64,000 nucleotides of DNA, taken from assembly GCA_029259725.1 (NCBI GenBank), contig JAJDER010000091.1, positions 1 through 64,000 of the forward strand. The letters run 5' to 3'. The first letter of the stretch is position 1, and each line of letters starts with the position of its first letter. Under the pieces are notes generated by a model. That model saw nothing but the letters and a program-made list of their open reading frames with translations. It did no database searches and had not been told where the DNA came from. The position numbers and the translations under genes are program-made. Positions 43,489 through 56,005 of the stretch are shown here, in pieces. The stretch comes from Planctomycetota bacterium (GTDB lineage Bacteria; Planctomycetota; B15-G4).

Positions 43489-44703
43489 TCACATCTCTTC
43501 GGAGAAGGACGCCACGCGCGCCACGTACTCCTCGTTGTCGGGCGCCAGCTCGGCTGCCTGCCGCGCGGTCAGCACGGCCTGCTTCCGCAGCTTGCTGTCG
43601 CCGAAGTGGAACTGGGCGCGCGCGAGCAGGTCGATCCGCTCGGCCAGCCAGGCCTTCTGGTCGGCTTCGCTCCAGTCGCCGCCGTCGCCTTCGTCGTCGC
43701 CCTGCCTCGCCTCCGACTCCGCCGCGTAGGACTCGCAGAAGGCGTGGGACGCCTCGACCGACACCGAAGCCAGCTCGATCACGAAGGACCGGTCCTCGTC
43801 GGACAGCTCGTCTTCGGCGCTCATGATGTAGTTGGCCACGCCGTAGGCCCAGTCGCCGGAATCGCCCTCACCGATGTTCGGCCAGGCGCCGCGGAAGGCC
43901 GCTCGCGCCAGGGCCGGCTCATCCGAGTTGGCCAGGTAGTTGCCCAACTCGGTCCAACCCTCGAAGGCGACGGGCTCGAGCGTCATCGACGCCAGGTGCG
44001 CCACCACCGGCGAGGTGTCGAGCAGGCCCTGCTCGTGACCCTCGATCGGAGCGCAGCGACTCCACACGTCACGCAGCACGATCGTGGCGCCCGTCGGCGT
44101 CTCGCCGTTCGGGTCCGCTTCCCGGATCTCGGTCATGAGCTTGCCGGCCGAGCGCTGGTCGCCGCAGTTGCCGAGCTTCTGAGCGAGCAGGTACTTGTAG
44201 GACAGGTCGCCCTCGTTCTCCTCGGCGGCCGCTTGCCGCGCGGAGACCGTGTCTTCGCGCTTCAGGATGCGGTCGAGTTCGTACATCAACGGCTCGGGCG
44301 GGATGTACCCGAAGATCGTGTCCTCGATGCGACCGTTGCCGCCGATGAAGAGCATCGACGGGAAGCTGTCCACGTTGAACAGCTTCTGGATCTGCTGGCT
44401 GTCGCGCGAATCGGAGTCGTCGAACTTCACGCAGACGAACTCGCTCAGCAGGGCCGCCACGTCGCCGGTAGGGAAGACCTCTTCGACGAGACCGTTGGCG
44501 TACTCGCTCCAGGTCGGCACGAAGGCGACCAGGACCATCGTCTCGCGCGCCTTGGCCTCGCGGACGGCGGCGTTGTAGCTGCCATCGAACCACTCGACCT
44601 CGGCGCGGGCACCGTGCTCGTCGTGCTCGTCGTCGGTGAGGGCGTGGGTGGTGGGCACGCTCAGCGCGAGGCCGAGCGCGGTGATCAGGAGGGGCTTCAA
44701 CAT
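43489..44703 (-). CDS. Secreted thioredoxin-fold protein without CxxC, tandem paralogue 2
   Basis: The 404-residue protein has a short signal peptide (LLITALGLALSVPTTHA). Residues 35-160 form a thioredoxin-like fold: EVEWFDGSYNAAVREAK, VLVAFVPTW, SEYANGLVEEVF, FNVDSFPSMLFIGGNG with the cis-proline, and IEDTIFGYIPPEP. The W-C-x-x-C site is W65-S-E-Y-A, so no cysteine is left at either position; redox catalysis is not expected. Residues 160-400 are helical TPR-like (DQKAWLAERIDLLARAQF, ARQAAELAPDNEEYVAR). It is a close paralogue of the protein at 44876 and the last gene of the ECF-sigma operon. Confidence 0.75.
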   Translation of the reverse strand: MLKPLLITALGLALSVPTTHALTDDEHDEHGARAEVEWFDGSYNAAVREAKARETMVLVAFVPTWSEYANGLVEEVFPTGDVAALLSEFVCVKFDDSDSRDSQQIQKLFNVDSFPSMLFIGGNGRIEDTIFGYIPPEPLMYELDRILKREDTVSARQAAAEENEGDLSYKYLLAQKLGNCGDQRSAGKLMTEIREADPNGETPTGATIVLRDVWSRCAPIEGHEQGLLDTSPVVAHLASMTLEPVAFEGWTELGNYLANSDEPALARAAFRGAWPNIGEGDSGDWAYGVANYIMSAEDELSDEDRSFVIELASVSVEASHAFCESYAAESEARQGDDEGDGGDWSEADQKAWLAERIDLLARAQFHFGDSKLRKQAVLTARQAAELAPDNEEYVARVASFSEEM

Positions 44704-44875
44704 GGTCGGGTTCCTTCGGGCCTCGTGCCGTGCCGCACCGGTCCGCCCCCTGTGGAGCGCGACGCGGGCGGGGGCCTCGGGGCCGGCTCGTGTCTTCACG
44801 AGCAGAGGGCCGCCGCGTCGCCGGGTGTGACCGCGCGCCCCACCTGCCGTCCGCGGAAGCGCGGCGCGAAGGGGC

Positions 44876-46132
44876 TCAGCCGTCCGTGCGACCGGCCGCG
44901 AAGAAGTCGCCGCGGCGCTGGTACTCCTCGTTCTCGGGGTCGAGCGCGAGGCAGCGGCCGGCCAGCGCGATGGCCTCGTCGGTGCGACCGACGGCGTCAT
45001 AGGCGAAGGCCAGCGCGTCGAGATGCTCGGCGAGCCAGGAGGGATAGTCCGCCTCGGTCACGTCGGCGGCCGCGAGCGCGGCGGCGTCGCCCTCCAGGCT
45101 CTCGGCCCGCGCGACGACTTCCTCGGCCACCTCGAGCACGAACGCGTTCTGGCCCGCGCTGGCCGCCGCGGCGTTCTCGGTCATGCGGCGCACCAGTTCC
45201 AGCCCGCTGGCGAGGAGGCCCGACTCGGGCACGTGGGCCCACTGGGTGCGATAGGCCGCCAAGGCCTGCTCGGGACGGCCCGCTCCGAAGTACAGGTCGC
45301 CCGCCTGGCCCCAGCCCTCGTAGCGGGCCTGCGGCAACTCGATGCCGCCCAGTGCGGCCTCGAACGCGGTCAGGTCCCAGTTGGCGATGTTGCCCGTGCC
45401 ACCCTGCTCGGCGGCGATGGCCTGGAGCACGTCCTGCAGCTTGACGCGCGCGCCGGTGAGGGTCGCGCCGTCGGGGTCGTCGCGCCGAATGGAGTCCAGC
45501 GCGCGCTGGGCCCGCCGTGTGTCGCCGCAGTCGCCCAGCTTGACCGCCAGGGAATGGCGCAGCGCCAGGTCCCCGGGCGACGCGTCCGCCAACGCCTGAC
45601 GCGCGCTCACCGTGTCGTTCCCGCTCTTGATGCGCTGCAGCTCGAACACCAGCGGCGCCGGCGGGATGTACCCGAAGATGGCGTCCTCGATCCGTCCGTC
45701 GGAGCCGACGACGATCAGCGTCGGGAACGTCGTCACGTTGAAGAGCTTCATCACCTGGGTCGCGCGTACATCGTCGTCGCGGTACTGCAGGCAGACCATG
45801 CCCTCGAGTTCCCGGGCCACGGCCGCATCGGCGAAGGTCTCGTCCACCACCTTGTTCGAGTAGTCGCTCCATGCGGGCACGAAGGCGATGAACACCAGCC
45901 TGCCGCCATCCCGGGCCGCGCGCAGCGCGCGGTTGTAGCCGTCGGCGTACCAGTCGATGCCGGGGTGGTCGCCGGCCGCGGGCGAACCCGGAGCGGCGAC
46001 CAGCGCAGCGTCCTGGAGCGGCGAGACCTGGGCCGCCGCGTCGGCGGCGAGGTGCGGCAACAGGGCCGTCGCCAGCAGGGTGATCAGGACGCCGTGACGG
46101 CGCGCGAGAGTCGAGCGGGATGTGGGCAGCAT
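44876..46132 (-). CDS. Secreted thioredoxin-fold protein without CxxC, tandem paralogue 1
   Basis: The 418-residue protein has a signal peptide (LITLLATALLPHLAADAAAQ). The thioredoxin fold (about 60-185) keeps FIAFVPAWSDYSNKVVDETF, FNVTTFPTLIVVGSDGRIED and AIFGYIPPAPL; the active-site place reads W88-S-D-Y-S, again with no cysteine. The C-terminal half is TPR-like and ends LALDPENEEYQRRGDFF, close to the paralogue's ending. A binding or chaperone role rather than disulfide exchange is inferred. ATG has GAGGT, 7 nt upstream, which overlaps the stop of the sigma gene 10 bp away (TGAGGT), so translation is probably coupled. Confidence 0.75.
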   Translation of the reverse strand: MLPTSRSTLARRHGVLITLLATALLPHLAADAAAQVSPLQDAALVAAPGSPAAGDHPGIDWYADGYNRALRAARDGGRLVFIAFVPAWSDYSNKVVDETFADAAVARELEGMVCLQYRDDDVRATQVMKLFNVTTFPTLIVVGSDGRIEDAIFGYIPPAPLVFELQRIKSGNDTVSARQALADASPGDLALRHSLAVKLGDCGDTRRAQRALDSIRRDDPDGATLTGARVKLQDVLQAIAAEQGGTGNIANWDLTAFEAALGGIELPQARYEGWGQAGDLYFGAGRPEQALAAYRTQWAHVPESGLLASGLELVRRMTENAAAASAGQNAFVLEVAEEVVARAESLEGDAAALAAADVTEADYPSWLAEHLDALAFAYDAVGRTDEAIALAGRCLALDPENEEYQRRGDFFAAGRTDG

Positions 46133-46142
46133 GGATGGGACC

Positions 46143-48842
46143 TCAGTGGATCAGGTGCAGCGCTCCCGGCTGGAGGTCGAGGCGCACCCGGCGCACCTCG
46201 TCCTCCCCGGAATACAGGATCAGGGTGTCGGCGTCCTCGGAGACCGAGACGATCTCCGAGCGCCCGTCGAGGACGCGCGCCGAGGGCAGTTGCCGGCGCA
46301 CGTCGAAGGTCAGCAGGCTGAGCGGCAGGACCGCGCCGGCCCCGTCGCGGATCTCGAACCGATCGGCTTCGTCGGCGAGAGCGAGTGCCACCCCGAGATC
46401 GACGCGGCGGCGGAGCACGATCTCCAGGCTCGCGACGTCCTGGCGCTCGCCGAGCCGGGTCCCCGGCGGCCGGCCGAACTCCAGGTCCAGCACCCCGTCG
46501 CCGCCCACCGAGAGGTAGCTGCCCTCCCGGGCGACGCGGGTCAGCGCGAAGCGGCCTTCGCTGTCGGTCACGACGCCGGAGGCGCTCACGAGCGAGCGCG
46601 AGCCGCCCACCTGGAACACGTCCATCGTGGCGCTCACCCCGATCCCCGCCAGCGGCGTGCCGTCCGGGGCGACCACGCGGCCCGCGACCCGCGGCAGGAC
46701 CGCGTCCATGTCGAGCACCAGCTCGACATCGTCACGTCCCGCGGCGACGCCGGTCTGTTCGGCGCGCACCAGCGTGTAGCGATCGTAGGCGGCCACGTGG
46801 TACTCGCGGTCGAGCAGGCCGGTCAGCTCGAAGCGACCGTCCTCACCGCTGCTCACCGTCGCCCAGTACTCATCCGGCGCTCCCCGCGCCACGGACTCGA
46901 CCAGCGTCTGGGGCCCGCGCGCATGGCCGGCGCCGCCGCCGGTCCGGGTGTCCTGTTCGTTGTCGTACAGGCGACGCTCGTGCACGGCGAGGACGCCTGG
47001 ATCCTCGATCCAGACCTCCACCCCGAGCATGGGCGTCCCGTCGGGCGCCACGACGCGACCGCTGATCGTCGCCGTCTCCGCACCCAGCGTCAGCACCACG
47101 CCGGTCCGCACCAGGCCCGCCGTGAGATCCTCGGGCAAGGGCAGGTCGAGCTGGCTGGGTTGCATGCCCGCCTTGACCGCGACGAGGCGCAGGCTCCGCT
47201 CACTGAGCGGCCCCCACCCCAGGCTGTTTCCCGGCCGGGGGAAGGGCGCGAGCTGGCTCTCCCGCAGGTGCAGTTCGAAGCTCCCGTCCGCGACCGTCAT
47301 GGCCGTCGCGAGTCCACACGACACGTGCGCGGCCGGCACCGGCACACCGACCGGATCGAGCACGGACCCACGGATCACGTGGGCCGGGCGGACCAGCGTC
47401 AGCACCAGATCCGCGCCGGCCACCCCGGGCGCGGCGTCGCGATGGATCTCGAAGCCGTCCGCCACCACCTGCAGCCTCAGGTCGTCGATGTCCGGCGCGT
47501 CGGGCAGCGCGAAGCGCCCGCGGTCGTCGGTCACGACGTGCTGCCGATACGGCGTGACCGCGTCGAGGGCCACCGTGAGCCGCGAGGCGAACCCCTCGGG
47601 GAGCTGCAGCGCCACCGCCGCGCCGACCACCGGCGCACCGCTCTCGTCCACGACGCTCCCGGTGAAGGGCCGCCGCTCAGCGGCCAGCACGATCTGGTCC
47701 AGGTGTCGGCGCCAGGGCCGGACGTTGCCCGACATCACGGTGACGTAGCGCGAGCTGGCCACCAGCACGCGCCCCGACCGCTCCACGTCCTCGAGCACGT
47801 AGCGGCCCTCGGCATCGGACAACGCCGTGATCGTGGAGTGGTTCCGCAGTGCGTCGCCGCCCTTGCCGCGAGCATCCGGCTCGAAGCGCAGACGCACGTC
47901 CGGCAACGGATCGCCGCGCCCATCGAACAACCGACCGCGCACCGGGGCGGTCAGGCTCGGGAAGCTGAACGTCATCGCGCCGACGTCGGCGTCGGGCTTC
48001 GGCGCGCCGCCGGCGACCGTGCCGGAGAGCGCCTCGATGCCCTCGGCGACGCCCGGCCCGGCATCCAGGTCGCCGCGCGCGCGGTCGGCCGTGCGCGGTC
48101 CGACCGTGGTCGTGACCGCGGGACCGGCACCCGCGTCCAGGAGACTCAGCATCGCCAGGGTCACCAGGCCGACGACGAGGATCAGCGCGCCGCCCGGCAG
48201 GAGCACACGCTGCCACCCGCGCACGGCGCCCCCGGGCGCACCCATCCCCGCGCCCCCGGCCAGGGTGGCGGCCGCGGCCTGCTCGCTCCCGAAGGCCAGC
48301 GCCGCGACGCCGAGCGCCCAGCTGTGGCCGTCGCCGCCGTGGGAATCGTCAAGTCGCTCGCGCAGCATGGCCAGCCCGCGCGACAGCCGCTTGCGCACGG
48401 CGGCCGGCGTGCACGCCTCGCGCACGGCGATCTCCGGAGCCGAGAGCCCGTCGAGGTACCGGAACAAGACGGTGGAGCGATACGGCTCGCCCAGCTCCAT
48501 GACCGTGGCCACGAGCCGCTTCTGCACGTCGCCGCGCTCCACGATGTCGAGGGTCGAGGCCACCGCCTCGGACCGGGCCGCGCGCTGCTCGCGGATGTGG
48601 CGTCGCGTGGAGCTGCGCACGGACTGGCGAGCCAGCGTGCGCGTGACCTTGGACAGCCAGGCCCGCAGCGACGGCCCGCTGTGAGCCGTTCTCGGCGGAC
48701 GCTCGAGGGCCAGCAACCAGGCCTCCTGGGCCACGTCCCGGGCCTGGTTGGGGTCCCGTACCAGGGAGCGGGCGAGGGCCTGCACCCAACCCATCTGGGC
48801 CAGGAGTTCCTCGGGGTCGATGGCGCGCGGGGTCTGGTCCAT
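46143..48842 (-). CDS. ECF sigma factor with transmembrane anchor and extracytoplasmic carboxypeptidase-regulatory-like domains
   Basis: Residues 10-165 form an ECF sigma factor: region 2 (VQALARSLVRDPNQARDVAQEAW, LRAWLSKVTRTLARQ) and region 4 (LGEPYRSTVLFRYLDGLSAP, CTPAAVRKRLSRGLAMLRERL). A single membrane helix lies at about 213-235 (VLLPGGALILVVGLVTLAML). The remaining 650 residues carry five or six carboxypeptidase D regulatory-like beta domains (V-R-G-R-L-F-D-G-R-G-D-P-L-P-D-V; SGRVVAPDGTPMLGVEVW; AGRVVAPDGTPLAGIGVSA). The topology places the sigma part in the cytoplasm and the beta domains outside, so external signals could act directly on the sigma part, without a separate anti-sigma factor. 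ATG 48842 follows no strong site. Two thioredoxin-fold genes follow in the operon. Confidence 0.85.
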   Translation of the reverse strand: MDQTPRAIDPEELLAQMGWVQALARSLVRDPNQARDVAQEAWLLALERPPRTAHSGPSLRAWLSKVTRTLARQSVRSSTRRHIREQRAARSEAVASTLDIVERGDVQKRLVATVMELGEPYRSTVLFRYLDGLSAPEIAVREACTPAAVRKRLSRGLAMLRERLDDSHGGDGHSWALGVAALAFGSEQAAAATLAGGAGMGAPGGAVRGWQRVLLPGGALILVVGLVTLAMLSLLDAGAGPAVTTTVGPRTADRARGDLDAGPGVAEGIEALSGTVAGGAPKPDADVGAMTFSFPSLTAPVRGRLFDGRGDPLPDVRLRFEPDARGKGGDALRNHSTITALSDAEGRYVLEDVERSGRVLVASSRYVTVMSGNVRPWRRHLDQIVLAAERRPFTGSVVDESGAPVVGAAVALQLPEGFASRLTVALDAVTPYRQHVVTDDRGRFALPDAPDIDDLRLQVVADGFEIHRDAAPGVAGADLVLTLVRPAHVIRGSVLDPVGVPVPAAHVSCGLATAMTVADGSFELHLRESQLAPFPRPGNSLGWGPLSERSLRLVAVKAGMQPSQLDLPLPEDLTAGLVRTGVVLTLGAETATISGRVVAPDGTPMLGVEVWIEDPGVLAVHERRLYDNEQDTRTGGGAGHARGPQTLVESVARGAPDEYWATVSSGEDGRFELTGLLDREYHVAAYDRYTLVRAEQTGVAAGRDDVELVLDMDAVLPRVAGRVVAPDGTPLAGIGVSATMDVFQVGGSRSLVSASGVVTDSEGRFALTRVAREGSYLSVGGDGVLDLEFGRPPGTRLGERQDVASLEIVLRRRVDLGVALALADEADRFEIRDGAGAVLPLSLLTFDVRRQLPSARVLDGRSEIVSVSEDADTLILYSGEDEVRRVRLDLQPGALHLIH

Positions 48843-48967: not shown

Positions 48968-50857
48968 ATGACGCTCACCGTCCGCCCCTCGCGGGTCTGC
49001 GTGGCCAGCCTGTTCATGGCCCTGTGGCTGGCTCCCGCGGCTCGACCGGCAGCGCCGGCGCCGACGCCGAGCGTGGGAACCGGCCCAGCCGTGGTCGCCG
49101 TGAGCCCGGCCCGCAACGCCGTGGACGCCCCCACGGGGACGCTGATCTCGGCCGAGGTGGACATCGCTCTCGATCCGGCCACGGTCGACTCCGACAGCGT
49201 CACGGTCTGGGGCCGGTGGTCCGGACCCACGCCCGGCGCCGTCTCCCTGTCCCCCGACGGACGGACCGTCGGCTTCACGCCCGGGCGCCCGTTCTTCCCC
49301 GGCGAGACCGTGACCGTGCAGCTCACGGCCACCATCACGAGCGCCACCGGCGATCCGCTGACCGGCGGCCACGCCTGGATGTTCAGCGCACGCACGGCTC
49401 CCGGCACCGGCAACTTCAGCATGGCCGGCAAGCTCTCCACCGAGATCGGGGGCGAGACCTTCGTGCAGTCCTACGGCATCTACGCCGGCGACCTCGACCA
49501 GGACGGCGCGCCCGACTTCGCCATTCCCAGCGAACAGACCGACGACGTGCGCGTGATGATGAACGACGGCTGCGCCAACTTCTCCGACCCCGTCTCGCAC
49601 GACCTCGGCGGCAACGCGACGCCCAGTTCCAACGAGGGCGCCGACTACGACGGGGACGGCAACGTGGACCTGGCCACGGCGAACATCTTCGGCGACAGCA
49701 TGAGCGTGCTGCTGGGCGACGGCGGCGGCGGCTTCTCGTCGATCACCACCTACCCGGCGGGCAACGCCCCGCGCGGCCTCTCGATCCTCGATGCCGAGGG
49801 TGACGGCGACACCGACATCGTCACCGCCCACCGCGACTCCTCGAACCTGGCCCTGTTCCGGAACGACGGCAGCGGGCAGTTCGCGGCCGCGGCCTTCTTC
49901 GAGGGCGGCGGTGCGGGCGAGACCGCGGTGACCTGCGCGGACGCGGACAACGACGGCTTCGTGGACGTCTTCGCCGCTTGCCACGGCAGCGACCGCATCA
50001 CGCTGCTGCTCAACGACGGCGCCGGGAACTTCAGCTTCTCCGACAGCGTGGGTGTCGGCCCCGAGCCGTGGAACATCGCCACGGCGGACGTGGACCTCGA
50101 CGGCTTCGTCGACGTCGGCACCTGCAACGCGGGCAACGCCAGCGCCTCCATCGCACGCGGGGACGGCGCCGGCGGCCTGACGCTCTCGAGCACCCTCGTC
50201 ACCGGCCCCTTCGGCCTGGCCATCGACTTCGGTGACCTCGACGGCGACGGCGACATGGACGTGGTCACCAGCAACCTGGCCACGTCCGACTGGTCGGTGA
50301 TGAAGAACGACGGCAGCGGGAGTTTCGGCCCGGCGCTGAGCCTGCCCGCGGCGCAGTCGGGTTCGTGCGCCACGCTGGTCGACTACGACCGCGACGGCTT
50401 CCTGGACATCGTCGGTCTGGACGAGTTCGAGGACGAGGTGACGCTGTGGCGGCAGGCCGTGCCGAGTCCGGTGGGCGTGGCCCAGCCGCGCTGTCAGGCG
50501 ACCCTGCGCATCGACAACCTGGCGAATCGCGGCGGCTACGGCAGCCAGCCGGCCCACACCGCGATCATGGGCAACCCGCTCTTCCTCGGCGTCACCGCCG
50601 AGCCGGACGCGGCCTGGACGCTGGCTCTCGGGCTACCCCTCGAGCCCGGGTTGATGGGGAACTTCGGGCTGCTCAACCTGGGGCCGCCGATCATCTTCCT
50701 GTTCAGCAGCACGGTGAACGCGCAGGGCGAGGCCGTGCTGCCCGTGACCGTGCCCACCGGCTCGCCGCCCGGCCTTGAGGTCGCGCTGCAGGTCTTCGTC
50801 GCGACGCCGACCGGATTCCGGACCACGAACCCCGAGGTGGTCGAGCTGGTGCCCTGA
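48968..50857 (+). CDS. Secreted FG-GAP/VCBS protein with Big_5-like domain and divergent terminal module
   Basis: The 629-residue protein has a signal peptide (CVASLFMALWLAPAARPAAP). An Ig-like Big_5-type domain (about 40-140: VVAVSPARNAVDAPTGTLIS, DLQ-like strands, HAWMFSAR) precedes a seven-unit FG-GAP/VCBS propeller: DLDQDGAPDFAIPS, DYDGDGNVDLATAN, DAEGDGDTDIVTAH, DADNDGFVDVFAAC, DVDLDGFVDVGTCN, DLDGDGDMDVVTSN and DYDRDGFLDIVGLD. The last 95 residues are related to the recurring module (LPLEPGLMGNFGLLNLGPP, PGLEVALQVFVA) but lack the KGG core. It ends 1 bp before the stop of the opposing kinase gene. GGAGA lies about 8 nt before ATG. Confidence 0.8.
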   Translation: MTLTVRPSRVCVASLFMALWLAPAARPAAPAPTPSVGTGPAVVAVSPARNAVDAPTGTLISAEVDIALDPATVDSDSVTVWGRWSGPTPGAVSLSPDGRTVGFTPGRPFFPGETVTVQLTATITSATGDPLTGGHAWMFSARTAPGTGNFSMAGKLSTEIGGETFVQSYGIYAGDLDQDGAPDFAIPSEQTDDVRVMMNDGCANFSDPVSHDLGGNATPSSNEGADYDGDGNVDLATANIFGDSMSVLLGDGGGGFSSITTYPAGNAPRGLSILDAEGDGDTDIVTAHRDSSNLALFRNDGSGQFAAAAFFEGGGAGETAVTCADADNDGFVDVFAACHGSDRITLLLNDGAGNFSFSDSVGVGPEPWNIATADVDLDGFVDVGTCNAGNASASIARGDGAGGLTLSSTLVTGPFGLAIDFGDLDGDGDMDVVTSNLATSDWSVMKNDGSGSFGPALSLPAAQSGSCATLVDYDRDGFLDIVGLDEFEDEVTLWRQAVPSPVGVAQPRCQATLRIDNLANRGGYGSQPAHTAIMGNPLFLGVTAEPDAAWTLALGLPLEPGLMGNFGLLNLGPPIIFLFSSTVNAQGEAVLPVTVPTGSPPGLEVALQVFVATPTGFRTTNPEVVELVP

Positions 50858-50858
50858 C

Positions 50859-53501
50859 TCAGTCCGACGGCGGCTCCACGGCGCGGGCCGGCCGCACGCC
50901 GACGAGATGCGTACGGAAGCTGCGTCGGGCGCTCCAGCGGGCGGCGCTGCGCAGGCGTTCAGGTGGGTTGCTGAAGCCGCCGCCGCGCAGGATGCGCGTG
51001 CCCAGGTCGCCGATGCTCTCCGGAATCTGCCGCTCGCCGTCCGGCGCGATGACGATGTCCGGGTGGTACGGCATGGGCATGTCGCGACACCACTCCCAGA
51101 CGTTGCCGTGCACGTCGTGCAGGCCGAACGGGTTGGGCTCGAAGCTCCCCACCGGCGCGTGGATGGTGTGGCCGTCGCGCAGGTCGTGGGTCTCGGCGTC
51201 CGCGTAGGACCAGCCCACCGAGCCCTGGTGATCGCGCGCATGCAGATCCGCCAGGTTGGCCGCCCGATCGAGCTGCGACAGATCGCGGCCGGTCCACCAG
51301 GGCGTGGCCGTGCCGCCGCGGCAGGCGGATTCCCACTGGGCCTCCGAGGGCAGCTGCAGGCCGAGCCGGCGCAGCGTCTCGTACGCCTCGTCCCAGGACA
51401 TCTGCTCGACCGGGTGGCTGAGCTGGATCGGCATGGTGCCGAAGGCGGGCGGCCGGTAGCCCGAGGGGTGGTCGCCGGCGAATCGCGTCCACTGCCCCTG
51501 CGTCATCTCGTACCTGGACAGGAAGTACGGCTGCAGCAGCACGCCGTTCACCGGGCCTTCATCGGGCCCGACGAGCGGGTCGTGGTTGAAACCGTCCGGG
51601 TCGGCGGCCTGGGCCCCCATGGCGAACGGCCCGCCGGGGAGCAGCACGAAGATCAGCGCGGTGTCGTCGGCGATGACGTACGCGCCGTCCGCATCGATCT
51701 CGGGCGGCTCCCCGGTCTGCACGTCGCGGAACTCCCACAGCCCGCTGCGCGGATCGCGCCGCAGCGGCACCAGCCCCCACTGCGGCGACAGTTGCAGACC
51801 GTCGTACGCCGGACACAGCCGCCGGTCCGCGATCGAGGCGCGCGCCTCATCCCAGGCCCGGGCCGCGTCGCCCTGGAGTGAGTCCTGCGTGATGCGGTCC
51901 ACCTCCCGGCGGCGCTGGGCCACCGCCGCGGCCGTGGGACCGAAGACGTCGTCCCGGGCGAACGCGGCGAGGGCCGAGGTCAGCTGCGTGAGCTGCTCGT
52001 GCCACCAGCGCGTGTCCTCATCGTCCGCACCGGCGGCGAGTCGGGCGGCGAGATCCGAGAGACGCGACTCGTGCAGCGCCCGTCGATCGAGCAGCGCCCG
52101 CGCGTCGGTCAGCCAGGTGTCCAGCTCGAGGGCGTTGTCGCGCGCCGGCCAGAGCGGGCCGTCCATGCGGGCGCGCAGGTCGCGCAGGCGGTTGCCGTCC
52201 GACAGCCGCAGGATGTCGAGCAACCGATCCCGGTCCCGCTGCAGGGCCTCGTAGGCGGAGAACGCCGCCGCCGCGGCGACGACCACCAGCGCGATTCCCA
52301 GGGCCGACGCGGCGCGATGCCGGCGGATGAAGCGCGAGCAGCGGTAGCGGAACGTGGACGGGCGCGCGTGGACGGGAAACCCGTCGAGGTGTCGGCGCAC
52401 GTCGTCGGCGAGGTCCCGGACGTGGGCGTATCGCTCGGTCGGATCCACGGCGAGCGCGCGCGTGAGGATGGCCCGCAGGTCCCCGCCCAGGTCGGGATGC
52501 AGCTCGACCCGCCCCGCGGCACCCGCGTCCCCCGCGCGTCGGTCGGGTGACGCGACCTCGGACCGCGGACGCTCGCCGGTGAGCAACTCGTGCAGGATCA
52601 CGCCCAGGGCGTACACGTCGGCGGCCGTGCCCACGGTGCGCCCCTCGCGCTGCTCCGGACTGGCGTAGGCCGGAGTCAAGGGCGCCGGCCCCTCCCGGGT
52701 CAGGCTCGGCGCGGCCCGTCGCGGCGGTCCCTCGGGCGCATCGCCCTCTCCGCCGTCAGCCTCGTCGTGGCCGGGGTCGCCCAGGGCACCCGCATCGAGC
52801 CCGTCGCGCGCGCCGAGCACCTTGGCGATGCCGAAGTCGAGCAGCCGCGGCGTGCCCTGCCGATCGACCAGGATGTTGGCCGGCTTGAGATCGCGATGGA
52901 CGACGAGCTGCCCGTGCGCGTAGGCCACGGCGTCGCACACGTCCGCGAACAGGCGGCAGCGCGCCGCGGCAGCGAGACCGCGCGCGTCACACCACCGGTC
53001 GAGCTCCTCGCCCTCGACGTATTCGGTGGCCAGCCACGGCCGGCCGTCGTCGGTGGCGCCGCCGTCGAGCAACCGCGCGATCCCCGGGTGCTCGAGTCGC
53101 GCCAGCGTCGCGCGCTCGTGCCGGAAGCGCGCCAGGATCTCGTCGCCGCCGAGGTCGCGCCGGATCAGCTTCAACGCCGCGCGCTGCTCGAACTCCGCGC
53201 GGCGCGACGCCAGATACACCACGCCCATGCCGCCCGTGCCCAGCACCGAGCGCAACGTCCAGGCGCCGACGGTGCGACCGATCTCGGTGTCCTCGGCCTG
53301 CAAGGCCCCGGCCAGTGTCGCCGCCGAGGGCGCGTCGATCAGGGTCAGCTCGGTGTCGGCCGCCAGCAGTTCGTGCACCTCGCGCCGAAGCGCCTCGTCG
53401 TCGCAGTGCTCCGCCAGGAACGCCACGCGCTCCTCGGGCGCCCGGTCCAGGGCGTCGTGGAACAGCGCTTCGAGGACGCGCGCGCGTTCGGTGTCCGGCA
53501 T
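50859..53501 (-). CDS. Membrane serine/threonine kinase with degenerate C-terminal FGE-sulfatase domain
   Basis: The 880-residue protein starts with a helical segment (1-50) seen in ECF-associated planctomycete kinases, then a full kinase domain (about 80-375: GTGGMGVVY, K111, HRDLKPAN at 202-209, DFG 222-224). A Gly/Asp/Ala-rich insertion (235-265) lies in the activation-segment region. A membrane helix (397-417) is followed by a coiled-coil-like part (430-600) and a SUMF1/FGE domain (617-875: LLPGGPFAMGAQA, LPSEAQWESACRGG, GLHDVHGNVWEWCRDM, RGGGFSNPPERLRSAARW). This last block has no cysteine where FGE enzymes have the catalytic pair, so a binding or sensory domain is likely. It is 11 bp downstream of the gingipain-type gene. 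Confidence 0.87.
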   Translation of the reverse strand: MPDTERARVLEALFHDALDRAPEERVAFLAEHCDDEALRREVHELLAADTELTLIDAPSAATLAGALQAEDTEIGRTVGAWTLRSVLGTGGMGVVYLASRRAEFEQRAALKLIRRDLGGDEILARFRHERATLARLEHPGIARLLDGGATDDGRPWLATEYVEGEELDRWCDARGLAAAARCRLFADVCDAVAYAHGQLVVHRDLKPANILVDRQGTPRLLDFGIAKVLGARDGLDAGALGDPGHDEADGGEGDAPEGPPRRAAPSLTREGPAPLTPAYASPEQREGRTVGTAADVYALGVILHELLTGERPRSEVASPDRRAGDAGAAGRVELHPDLGGDLRAILTRALAVDPTERYAHVRDLADDVRRHLDGFPVHARPSTFRYRCSRFIRRHRAASALGIALVVVAAAAAFSAYEALQRDRDRLLDILRLSDGNRLRDLRARMDGPLWPARDNALELDTWLTDARALLDRRALHESRLSDLAARLAAGADDEDTRWWHEQLTQLTSALAAFARDDVFGPTAAAVAQRRREVDRITQDSLQGDAARAWDEARASIADRRLCPAYDGLQLSPQWGLVPLRRDPRSGLWEFRDVQTGEPPEIDADGAYVIADDTALIFVLLPGGPFAMGAQAADPDGFNHDPLVGPDEGPVNGVLLQPYFLSRYEMTQGQWTRFAGDHPSGYRPPAFGTMPIQLSHPVEQMSWDEAYETLRRLGLQLPSEAQWESACRGGTATPWWTGRDLSQLDRAANLADLHARDHQGSVGWSYADAETHDLRDGHTIHAPVGSFEPNPFGLHDVHGNVWEWCRDMPMPYHPDIVIAPDGERQIPESIGDLGTRILRGGGFSNPPERLRSAARWSARRSFRTHLVGVRPARAVEPPSD

Positions 53502-53512
53502 CGGCTACGGCC

Positions 53513-56005
53513 CTAGGGCACGATCCCCCGCATGGCGTTGGAGAGCGCCACGCCCTGGGTCGCCGCCGGGTCGGCGATGGCGTACTGGAACCACAGCTCG
53601 GTGTCGGCCGGGATGCCCAGCGGAAGCGGCGCGGCGAGGGCGATGTCGCCCTGCCCGTCGGTGACCAGGTCGAGGATGAACAGCCAGGGGTGCGCGAGCA
53701 GCTCGCCGCCCTTGAGCGGCACGGGCACGCTGCTCAGCGCGACGAACAGCCCGGTGACCGCGTTCTGCGCCGCGTTCTCCAGGTCGAGCTCGACCAGGCT
53801 GGCCGGGACCAGCGGACCTTCCGCCTGGAGCAGCGGCACGCCTTGCACGCCGGGCAGGGCCGCGCCGAAGTTGGACCAGACGCCGTCGACCACCCCGAGG
53901 GAACCCTGGGACTCGTTGCCGCAGGGGTCGCTCCCGGTCACGTCGATGTGCCCCGCCAGGCCGGTCGGACCCTGGGGGAAGCTGGCCGAGCCGCTGCCGT
54001 CGGTGTAGGCGTTGACGAGCAGCGTGGGCGGCTCACCCGGCGGGCCGCCTTGATGCAGGGCGACGAGGGCGCCCTCGATCGGCGTGCCGGCGGCGTCCGT
54101 CACGCGCACGACGATCGGCTGGCACGGGCCCCCGGACGGGCACACCGGCACCTCGCTCGGAAAGCTCAGCACGAGCGGCGCGGCGTCCTCGCGACGCAGG
54201 GTCATCGAGGGGTCGCCGAGCAGCAGGTACATCCAGGGGTTCAACCCCGGCGCGGTGTCGACGGCCCGGGCCTCGGCCCACGCGATGGCCTGACCGTGCC
54301 GCAGCAGGCCCCGGTCGAACACGGCCTCGAACATGCGGCGGTCGAGTTCATGGTTCTGCTGCGTGCCCGAGACGGCGCTCGATCCGTAGTGGGCCACGGC
54401 ACCCGAGCCGGGCACCTCCATCCAGGCCTCGCCGAGGCTGTCGATCGTGCCGCCCGTGTGGCTGATGTCGTTGTTCCAGCAGTCGAACGCCCAGACCACG
54501 CCGAGCGCCGTGGCATTGCCGATGCCGAGCAGCTCGTTCTTGTGGAAGTCCTCGCCCAGCGTGTTCCAGTTCCACCAGCTGGTCTGGCTGCCGTGGCCGC
54601 GGTAGGCCATCACGCCGAAGCCGCCCTGGGCCGCGTCGACCACGTCGCTGTTGTCCGCGAAGGCGCTGCTGCCGTAGATCCTCTGGAAGTGCGGTGGGAC
54701 GGCGTAGGACGCCGCCATGACCGCATCCTGCGCGCCCTGGTACTTGCCCGGCGAGCCCTCCTCGTGGGCCACGAGCACGACCTCGTCGTAGTGCGTGCCG
54801 ACGTCGTCCGTGACGTAGCCCATCAGCTTGACCAGCTGCGCCGAGAGGTCCGCCGGCCCGTCGACGCTGAGGCGACCCACGTAGAGTTCCTCGTCGAGGT
54901 CACCGTCGAGAGGCGACCCGAAGAGATCGTCGGTGGGCACGCTCGGGAAGGTCGGCGAGCTGCACCACGGCAGCTGCGCGCGATCCCCGACGAGCAGCGC
55001 GTAGTGGTCCGCCCACGGGTCGCCGGCCTGGTACCAGTTGCGGATGGCGGTGCGGATCTGAGCGCAGGTCACCGCCGGCAGGGACTCGGTCCGGATCACA
55101 TCGACCTCGAAGCCGCGCGCGCGCTTGAAGTCCACGAACACCTGCAACGGGACCTCGTGGAGCTGCGACGCGACGATCAGGTAGCGCCCCGCGAAGGACT
55201 GGGTGTTGGTCGGGAAGGCCGTCAGCTGGTCGGGCCAGTTGACGAAGGTCGCGGCCGCCAGCACCGCGCGGTCCTTGGTCATCGGCGGTCGCGTGCTGGA
55301 GACGCCCGTCGCGGCCAGGTGCACGCGCAGGTGGCCGCTGATGTGCAGCTCGCCGATCACCGGGTCGAACCGCGCCGGATAGATCTCGGGGATCGCGCCG
55401 GGGATCGGGCCGAGCAGGTCGCGCACGGTCGAGAACGCGGTGCCCGGGGTGCTCGGGAAGATCGGGCCGGCGTAGATCACCGGGTTGATCGTGAACTGCG
55501 CGGGCGTGCCGTCGGGGTCCCCGGGGCCGGGATCGGCGCCCGGATCGAAGGCCTCGTCCTGCTCCTCGATGACGGTGGGGTAGGGCAGTTGGCCGGCGAA
55601 GACGTGCGGGTCCAGGTCCACCACCGACACCAGCGAGACCACCGGCGCGAAGGTCGACACGGCCAGGCGCACCCGCGCGACGGGCAGGTCCGGCGCACCG
55701 GTGATTCCCAGGCGCGCAAGTCCCGGCACCTGGATGTGCTGGTAGACGTTGCCGTCCCCCGGCGCGACGTCCTCGGTCCAGAAGCCGTGCACGATCACGT
55801 CGAGGAAGGTGTCGACCTCGTTCGAGGCCTGCGCGTCGAACACGATCTCGGCCGGCGTGCCCGCGGGGCTGCCGTCGAGCGACACCCACGCCTGCGCCGC
55901 GGTCGCCGGTGCCAGGAACAGCACCACGAGCACGAGCACGAGCACGGGCGACGCGACGCGCACGGGCCGGTGCGGGATGAGTGGATCGATGCTCTGCTGA
56001 CGCAT
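53513..56005 (-). CDS. Gingipain-type C25 cysteine peptidase with C-terminal KGG-type module
   Basis: The 830-residue protein has a signal peptide ending near AQA38. Peptidase C25 signatures: LIVASQLHEVPLQVFVDFKRARGFEV near 276, HYALLVGDRAQLPW, ELYVGRLSVDGPAD and the catalytic histidine and cysteine in MAYRGH471GSQTSWW and WAFDC509WNND. An Ig-like domain follows (CQPIVVRVTDAAGTPIEGAL). The C-terminal ~100 residues (53516-53818) are a copy of the recurring module (PLKGGELLAHP; ELWFQYAIADPAATQGVALS). In Bacteroidota gingipains are exported by the type IX system by means of a C-terminal domain; an analogous function here is only a hypothesis. ATG 56005 follows GCAGGAG with 8 nt. Confidence 0.85.
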   Translation of the reverse strand: MRQQSIDPLIPHRPVRVASPVLVLVLVVLFLAPATAAQAWVSLDGSPAGTPAEIVFDAQASNEVDTFLDVIVHGFWTEDVAPGDGNVYQHIQVPGLARLGITGAPDLPVARVRLAVSTFAPVVSLVSVVDLDPHVFAGQLPYPTVIEEQDEAFDPGADPGPGDPDGTPAQFTINPVIYAGPIFPSTPGTAFSTVRDLLGPIPGAIPEIYPARFDPVIGELHISGHLRVHLAATGVSSTRPPMTKDRAVLAAATFVNWPDQLTAFPTNTQSFAGRYLIVASQLHEVPLQVFVDFKRARGFEVDVIRTESLPAVTCAQIRTAIRNWYQAGDPWADHYALLVGDRAQLPWCSSPTFPSVPTDDLFGSPLDGDLDEELYVGRLSVDGPADLSAQLVKLMGYVTDDVGTHYDEVVLVAHEEGSPGKYQGAQDAVMAASYAVPPHFQRIYGSSAFADNSDVVDAAQGGFGVMAYRGHGSQTSWWNWNTLGEDFHKNELLGIGNATALGVVWAFDCWNNDISHTGGTIDSLGEAWMEVPGSGAVAHYGSSAVSGTQQNHELDRRMFEAVFDRGLLRHGQAIAWAEARAVDTAPGLNPWMYLLLGDPSMTLRREDAAPLVLSFPSEVPVCPSGGPCQPIVVRVTDAAGTPIEGALVALHQGGPPGEPPTLLVNAYTDGSGSASFPQGPTGLAGHIDVTGSDPCGNESQGSLGVVDGVWSNFGAALPGVQGVPLLQAEGPLVPASLVELDLENAAQNAVTGLFVALSSVPVPLKGGELLAHPWLFILDLVTDGQGDIALAAPLPLGIPADTELWFQYAIADPAATQGVALSNAMRGIVP

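Follow-up and report, generated by a model that had tools for sequence, protein, structure and literature searches.

The window analyzed here, the whole 64,000-nucleotide stretch of DNA presented above, carries on its minus strand a gene (46143..48842) that encodes a membrane-anchored ECF sigma factor of 899 amino acids, as judged from the open reading frame, Pfam and orthologues. The Pfam matches above gathering cutoffs are Sigma70_r2 (PF04542, 34.2 bits; residues 18-80, 48603..48791, minus strand), Sigma70_r4_2 (PF08281, 35.3 bits; residues 109-160, 48363..48518, minus strand), and CarboxypepD_reg, and both sigma regions are also recovered as fold matches, region 2 to ECF sigma factors. The sigma regions are followed by one transmembrane (TM) helix and ~660 further residues, of which the first ~60 are disordered and the remaining ~600 form tandem beta sandwiches in the structural model. 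Pfam, hydropathy, and AlphaFold2 agree on this order of parts, which is the one that the first-pass annotation had described. A frame artifact is excluded, as there is no stop between the sigma part and the TM helix in the window gene, in its orthologues, or in the relatives analyzed. Because the full length is kept in two orthologues and the layout recurs in more than 100 relatives, we conclude that the architecture did not arise by chance.

The sigma part resembles known ECF factors in sequence and in predicted structure. Regions 2 and 4 are present, joined by a short linker, and region 3 is absent, which is the hallmark of ECF (group 4) factors. Among the NCBIfam matches listed, the general ECF superfamily model TIGR02937 is the only one over its cutoff (49.3 bits versus 42.9). 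An AlphaFold2 model of residues 1 to 243, built with 70 alignment rows (mean pLDDT, 85.7), contains the sigma helices, two helices directly after region 4 (residues 172-184 and 186-197), and the TM helix (residues 218-237). The best Foldseek matches of the sigma model are ECF factors in initiation complexes or bound to anti-sigma factors (SigL, SigE, and sigmaE), and region 4 superposes on region 4 of Escherichia coli sigmaE bound to -35 DNA with an rmsd of 1.5. A profile search against solved ECF factors gave SigL initiation complexes as the best match (E = 3.5e-22). As modeled, the ECF fold of the sigma part is complete and shows no signs of degeneration, and the likeness of this part to the sigma chains of solved complexes predicts that it binds core RNA polymerase and drives transcription.

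Directly after region 4, nearly all relatives carry the motif LD..HGGDR.AW..ALLPLA. In the window protein it reads HGGDGHSWALGVAALAFGS (residues 168-186, 48285..48341, minus strand), and D165 and W175 of this post-region-4 motif are invariant or more than 90% conserved among relatives. Conservation and the model point to a candidate built-in regulatory or membrane-facing helix. The linker between region 4 and the TM helix is ~45 residues long, and its second half is of low confidence in the AlphaFold2 model. There is no Pfam match to a zinc-finger anti-sigma domain between region 4 and the TM helix, where residues 168 to 212 are without cysteine, nor any Pfam match in the window protein to FecR, FecR_C, STN, or WD40 repeats. 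Since neither a zinc-finger nor a FecR anti-sigma part is present, the post-region-4 helix is a candidate for the element that holds the sigma part off.

The TM helix (residues ~213-237, 48132..48206, minus strand) is supported by hydropathy, by the modeled helix, and by a charge asymmetry across the family. Residues 217 to 235 form the single hydropathy peak of membrane strength in the window protein (mean, 2.45). Across 130 relatives, the net charge is higher on the N-terminal side of the TM helix in 75% and lower in 12% (Wilcoxon P = 3e-14). The more positive N-terminal side indicates that the sigma part should lie inside the cell, so an N-in/C-out topology, the one that RseA and IutY have, is supported family-wide by charge, with the TM helix itself predicted from hydropathy and AlphaFold2. 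The sequence and the model support the earlier proposal of an ECF-type sigma factor anchored in the membrane with its beta domains outside. Outside the membrane, a disordered stalk (residues ~237-297, 47952..48134, minus strand; pLDDT below 50), which may offer a first protease site, leads into a tandem CarboxypepD_reg or transthyretin-like beta-sandwich ectodomain (46146..47951, minus strand) identified by Pfam, the model, and PDB fold matches. CarboxypepD_reg (PF13620) matches the ectodomain in four stretches with 97 bits against a cutoff of 32.3, and the domain is found at E ≤ 0.001 in 34 of 39 ectodomains scanned. The ectodomain model has a mean pLDDT of 75, with values below 50 over its residues 1 to 61 and tandem beta sandwiches thereafter. 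Its PDB matches are mostly pilin- or adhesin-type beta domains and, as the whole-length TM-scores are low, they speak to the type of fold only.

The sigma gene appears to be cotranscribed with a gene for an exported protein with a thioredoxin fold and TPR (44876..46132, minus strand; Pfam), which starts 10 bases past the sigma stop codon. Its export signal was recognized by eye, its thioredoxin-like Pfam scores are weak, and its redox activity is doubtful because WSDYS stands in place of the expected CxxC. A second exported thioredoxin-fold/TPR paralogue (43489..44757, minus strand; Pfam), 38% identical to the first and with a tentative start, lies beyond it. A thioredoxin-fold/TPR homologue sits directly downstream of the sigma gene in both orthologous loci; none was found in the loci of the other fetched relatives. 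These co-encoded proteins suggest that envelope protein handling is perhaps the theme of the window sigma factor. On the other side, ~125 bases away and divergent from the sigma gene, lies a gene for an FG-GAP repeat protein (48968-50857, plus strand), a possible regulon member; a protein that looks FG-GAP-like by eye also adjoins, upstream, the paralogue on contig C146 (L003/L009). Farther along are a single 880-aa protein that combines a Ser/Thr kinase with a sulfatase-modifying-factor (FGE) domain (50859-53501, minus strand) and a gingipain-type protein of the Peptidase C25 family that weakly matches CarboxypepD_reg (53513-56005, minus strand).

The two orthologues (L064 and L065) are from organisms in the family of the window genome, in two genera other than its own. 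Identity between orthologues is 78 to 79% in sigma region 2, 56 to 69% in region 4, 34 to 42% in the ectodomain, and ~30% in the TM and juxtamembrane segment. The first-pass annotation had suggested surveying homologues for conserved juxtamembrane residues, and between the orthologues this segment is poorly conserved, which gives no hint of a sequence-specific cut site and counts against proteolytic release. In the draft assembly of the window genome, which spans 4.79 Mb at 84% completeness, region 4 is matched 56 times in all; two close paralogues, one on contig C14 and one on contig C146, repeat the layout of the window gene. Next to the C14 paralogue, and divergent from it, lies a gene whose stand-alone product has CarboxypepD_reg but no sigma part and carries a membrane segment at its N terminus (L008:7793-10144, plus strand).

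The relatives belong almost entirely to Planctomycetota. A scan of genome contigs with five alignment rows as the query confirmed 223 relatives, 80 of which were fetched. Most of these are from Planctomycetota MAGs, one is from a complete genome (Poly30, CP036434.1), and three of the relative records bear the names Myxococcales, Byssovorax, or Deltaproteobacteria. The typical relative has the sigma part, the motif, a variable linker, one TM helix, and usually several hundred outside residues. Several Planctomycetota lineages have dozens of long-ORF paralogues per genome; by hand count, ~37 of the matches listed for genome G063 have frames of 533 aa or more. In an unsystematic look at the top relatives, no split pair of sigma and TM genes was noticed, and the short frames there resemble contig ends.

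An unexpected aspect of this family is a putative translation start nested within the frame, just before the TM helix. We defined it as a Shine-Dalgarno (SD) 4-mer placed 4 to 11 nt before an in-frame ATG, within 14 codons upstream of the TM helix to 8 codons into it. Such a start occurs in 55 of 130 relatives (~42%), compared with ~2% of control windows. It was seen in 36 of 78 genes of the discovery set versus 1.9% of equal downstream windows (Fisher P = 1e-35, uncorrected for relatedness), and in 19 of 52 genes of a second set, fetched mostly once the hypothesis of an internal start existed, versus 1.7% of control windows (Fisher P = 6e-18, likewise uncorrected). When synonymous codons were resampled with the protein fixed and each gene's own codon usage, 7.1±2.3 and 6.5±1.8 starts were expected (36 and 19 observed), and none of 1,000 draws reached the observed count in either set. 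Along the gene, the signal is a single peak, with 35 per 1,000 codons over the 10 codons that precede the TM helix and ~1 elsewhere, and the mode of the spacer between SD and ATG is 8 nt. Many relatives have GALLMSxKxK just before the TM helix, encoded GGA-GCN-..-ATG, and a glycine 3 to 5 residues before the pre-TM methionine uses the GGA codon in 76% of cases, compared with 18% where G-x(2-4)-M occurs at other places in these genes. The resampling and this glycine codon control reject the view that the SD sequence is explained by conservation of the protein alone. A general pausing signal before TM helices is also rejected, as none of 20 internal TM helices of Ser/Thr kinases from the same phylum has an SD and ATG (only 7 of the 20 have a methionine there) and pausing requires no ATG. 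Simple inheritance of one start is rejected as well: on a tree with many unresolved forks, the label changes 34 times, versus 42 when shuffled.

The same feature recurs in a second, distant group of sigma-TM genes, found with an ECF01-Gob/ECF57-like probe. There, 16 of 29 genes have the SD and ATG, versus 22 of 443 control windows (P = 4e-12), and the outside domains are different (PQQ/BamB propeller, FecR_C/STN, and I42 inhibitor). Poly30 has two clear cases among seven loci examined, with putative internal ATGs at 5218122 (minus strand) and 2556422 (plus strand) of CP036434.1, and the C14 paralogue of the window gene carries an internal start (GAGG-N8/9-ATG). The start is absent from the window gene, by reading, and from both orthologues. 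Going by these sequence patterns, carriers of the nested start probably also make an anchored receptor that is without the sigma part. We lean slightly toward the view that this class of Planctomycetota sigma-receptor fusions encodes two nested proteins per frame, the ratio of which would set signaling; the window gene is a member of the family, in a lineage without the start. If the internal start is real, many such genes have wrongly been read as fusions with a single product, and one frame could in a simple way supply a receptor and a transcription factor in different amounts. As Poly30 is a fully sequenced isolate that carries candidates, the nested start is directly testable.

As to how the window protein works, we regard it as an even call that it is a membrane-tethered sigma factor freed by regulated proteolysis. 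The sigma part would be inactive or restricted while held at the membrane, possibly aided by the post-region-4 helix, and the ectodomain would detect an external change, perhaps in how envelope proteins fold or assemble. A first protease would then cleave the stalk and a site-2 protease (RseP-type, M50) the TM helix, after which the freed sigma part would bind RNA polymerase and turn on its genes, as do IutY and the RseA-held sigmaE. In many relatives, but not from the window gene, the internal start would also yield an anchored ectodomain without a sigma part. We favor proteolysis because of the topology, the disordered stalk, and the precedent of IutY; the lack of a recognizable anti-sigma domain to hold the sigma part off before cleavage counts against it. 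Searched by family, the window genome has at least four M50 protease ORFs, and M50 proteases were found in 14 of 14 control genomes, so that their presence, being near-universal, says little. One M50 ORF (565 aa; G000:C186:71556-71888, plus strand) lies on the same contig, ~7.5 kb past the end of the window.

The same lack of an anti-sigma domain would suit an anchored sigma factor that works in place, recruiting RNA polymerase to membrane-proximal DNA in the manner of ToxR or CadC, with the ectodomain altering conformation or clustering across the membrane. The ~45-residue linker could give such a protein reach, and the post-region-4 helix is conserved as if it were more than a tether. However, IutY, the known fused ECF factor, is cut, and we know of no sigma factor that functions from the membrane; we consider this reading unlikely. 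Somewhat less likely still is that two products, the full fusion and a sigma-less anchored ectodomain acting as a decoy, an oligomer partner, or the main structural product, set signaling by their ratio. The enrichment of the nested start, the resampling, the single peak, the GGA bias, its absence from the kinases, and its recurrence in the second group all speak for two products, but this concerns ~40% of the family and neither the window gene nor its two orthologues, and the SD and ATG could have been left over from an ancestral operon of two genes. The resemblance of the ectodomain to adhesin- or pilin-type beta stalks and the very large numbers of paralogues would fit a protein that is no longer a transcription factor, its sigma domain co-opted as a cytoplasmic anchor or as a DNA- or polymerase-binding module of an envelope structural protein. 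We think this improbable, the least likely of the readings considered here, as sigma regions 2 and 4 keep their ECF sequence signatures and are the most conserved parts of the protein between orthologues (56 to 79%, versus 34 to 42% for the ectodomain).

With tens of paralogues in a single genome and outside domains that can be exchanged, such a family would amount to a major signaling layer of Planctomycetota that has so far gone unread. In the literature searched, we found no description of an ECF sigma factor joined to a carboxypeptidase regulatory-like domain or of a nested start in ECF sigma-TM genes, and wording such as "membrane-anchored sigma factor" returned nothing pertinent. The layout of the window protein is nevertheless not new in kind, as membrane-anchored ECF fusions are known (IutY and ECF48/ECF52/ECF53). 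IutY of Pseudomonas putida (ECF243), released by Prc and RseP as found by experiment, is, according to a 2022 review, the only fused, membrane-anchored ECF factor with a worked-out activation route (PMC8999054). Like the window protein, it has an ECF sigma factor fused C-terminally to a membrane-spanning, periplasmic regulatory part, but it has a fused anti-sigma factor and serves cell-surface iron signaling, whereas the window protein is without FecR and has CarboxypepD_reg repeats. A FecR-like fusion with a layout close to that of IutY does occur in Planctomycetota: in one protein of the second sigma-TM group (L198:844-2301, minus strand), the outside part matches FecR_C and, weakly, STN. 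The actinobacterial groups ECF48, ECF52, and ECF53 (SCO4117), for which a requirement for proteolysis has been predicted, similarly have a single chain in which sigma is joined to one or two TM helices and a regulatory extension; however, they have a zinc-finger anti-sigma domain after region 4, where the window protein has a cysteine-free linker with another motif (LD..HGGDR.AW..ALLPLA).

Within Planctomycetota, the expectation that ECF factors can bear long C-terminal extensions fits the WD40-type extended factors already known there. These ECF57/WD40 factors are likewise greatly expanded, but they have WD40 repeats (prevalent, not universal) and two cysteines linking regions 2 and 4, whereas the window protein has CarboxypepD_reg domains in place of WD40. 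The Triton and SDS fractions of Tuwongella immobilis contained ECF factors (PMC8567305). The RseA-sigmaE system shares with the window protein an envelope signal, an N-in/C-out membrane protein, and expected site-1 and site-2 proteolysis, but it divides between two proteins what is here one protein without an anti-sigma domain. Judged by sequence, the CarboxypepD_reg branch departs from each of these named groups in the features tested, and it is by such described features that it is set apart.
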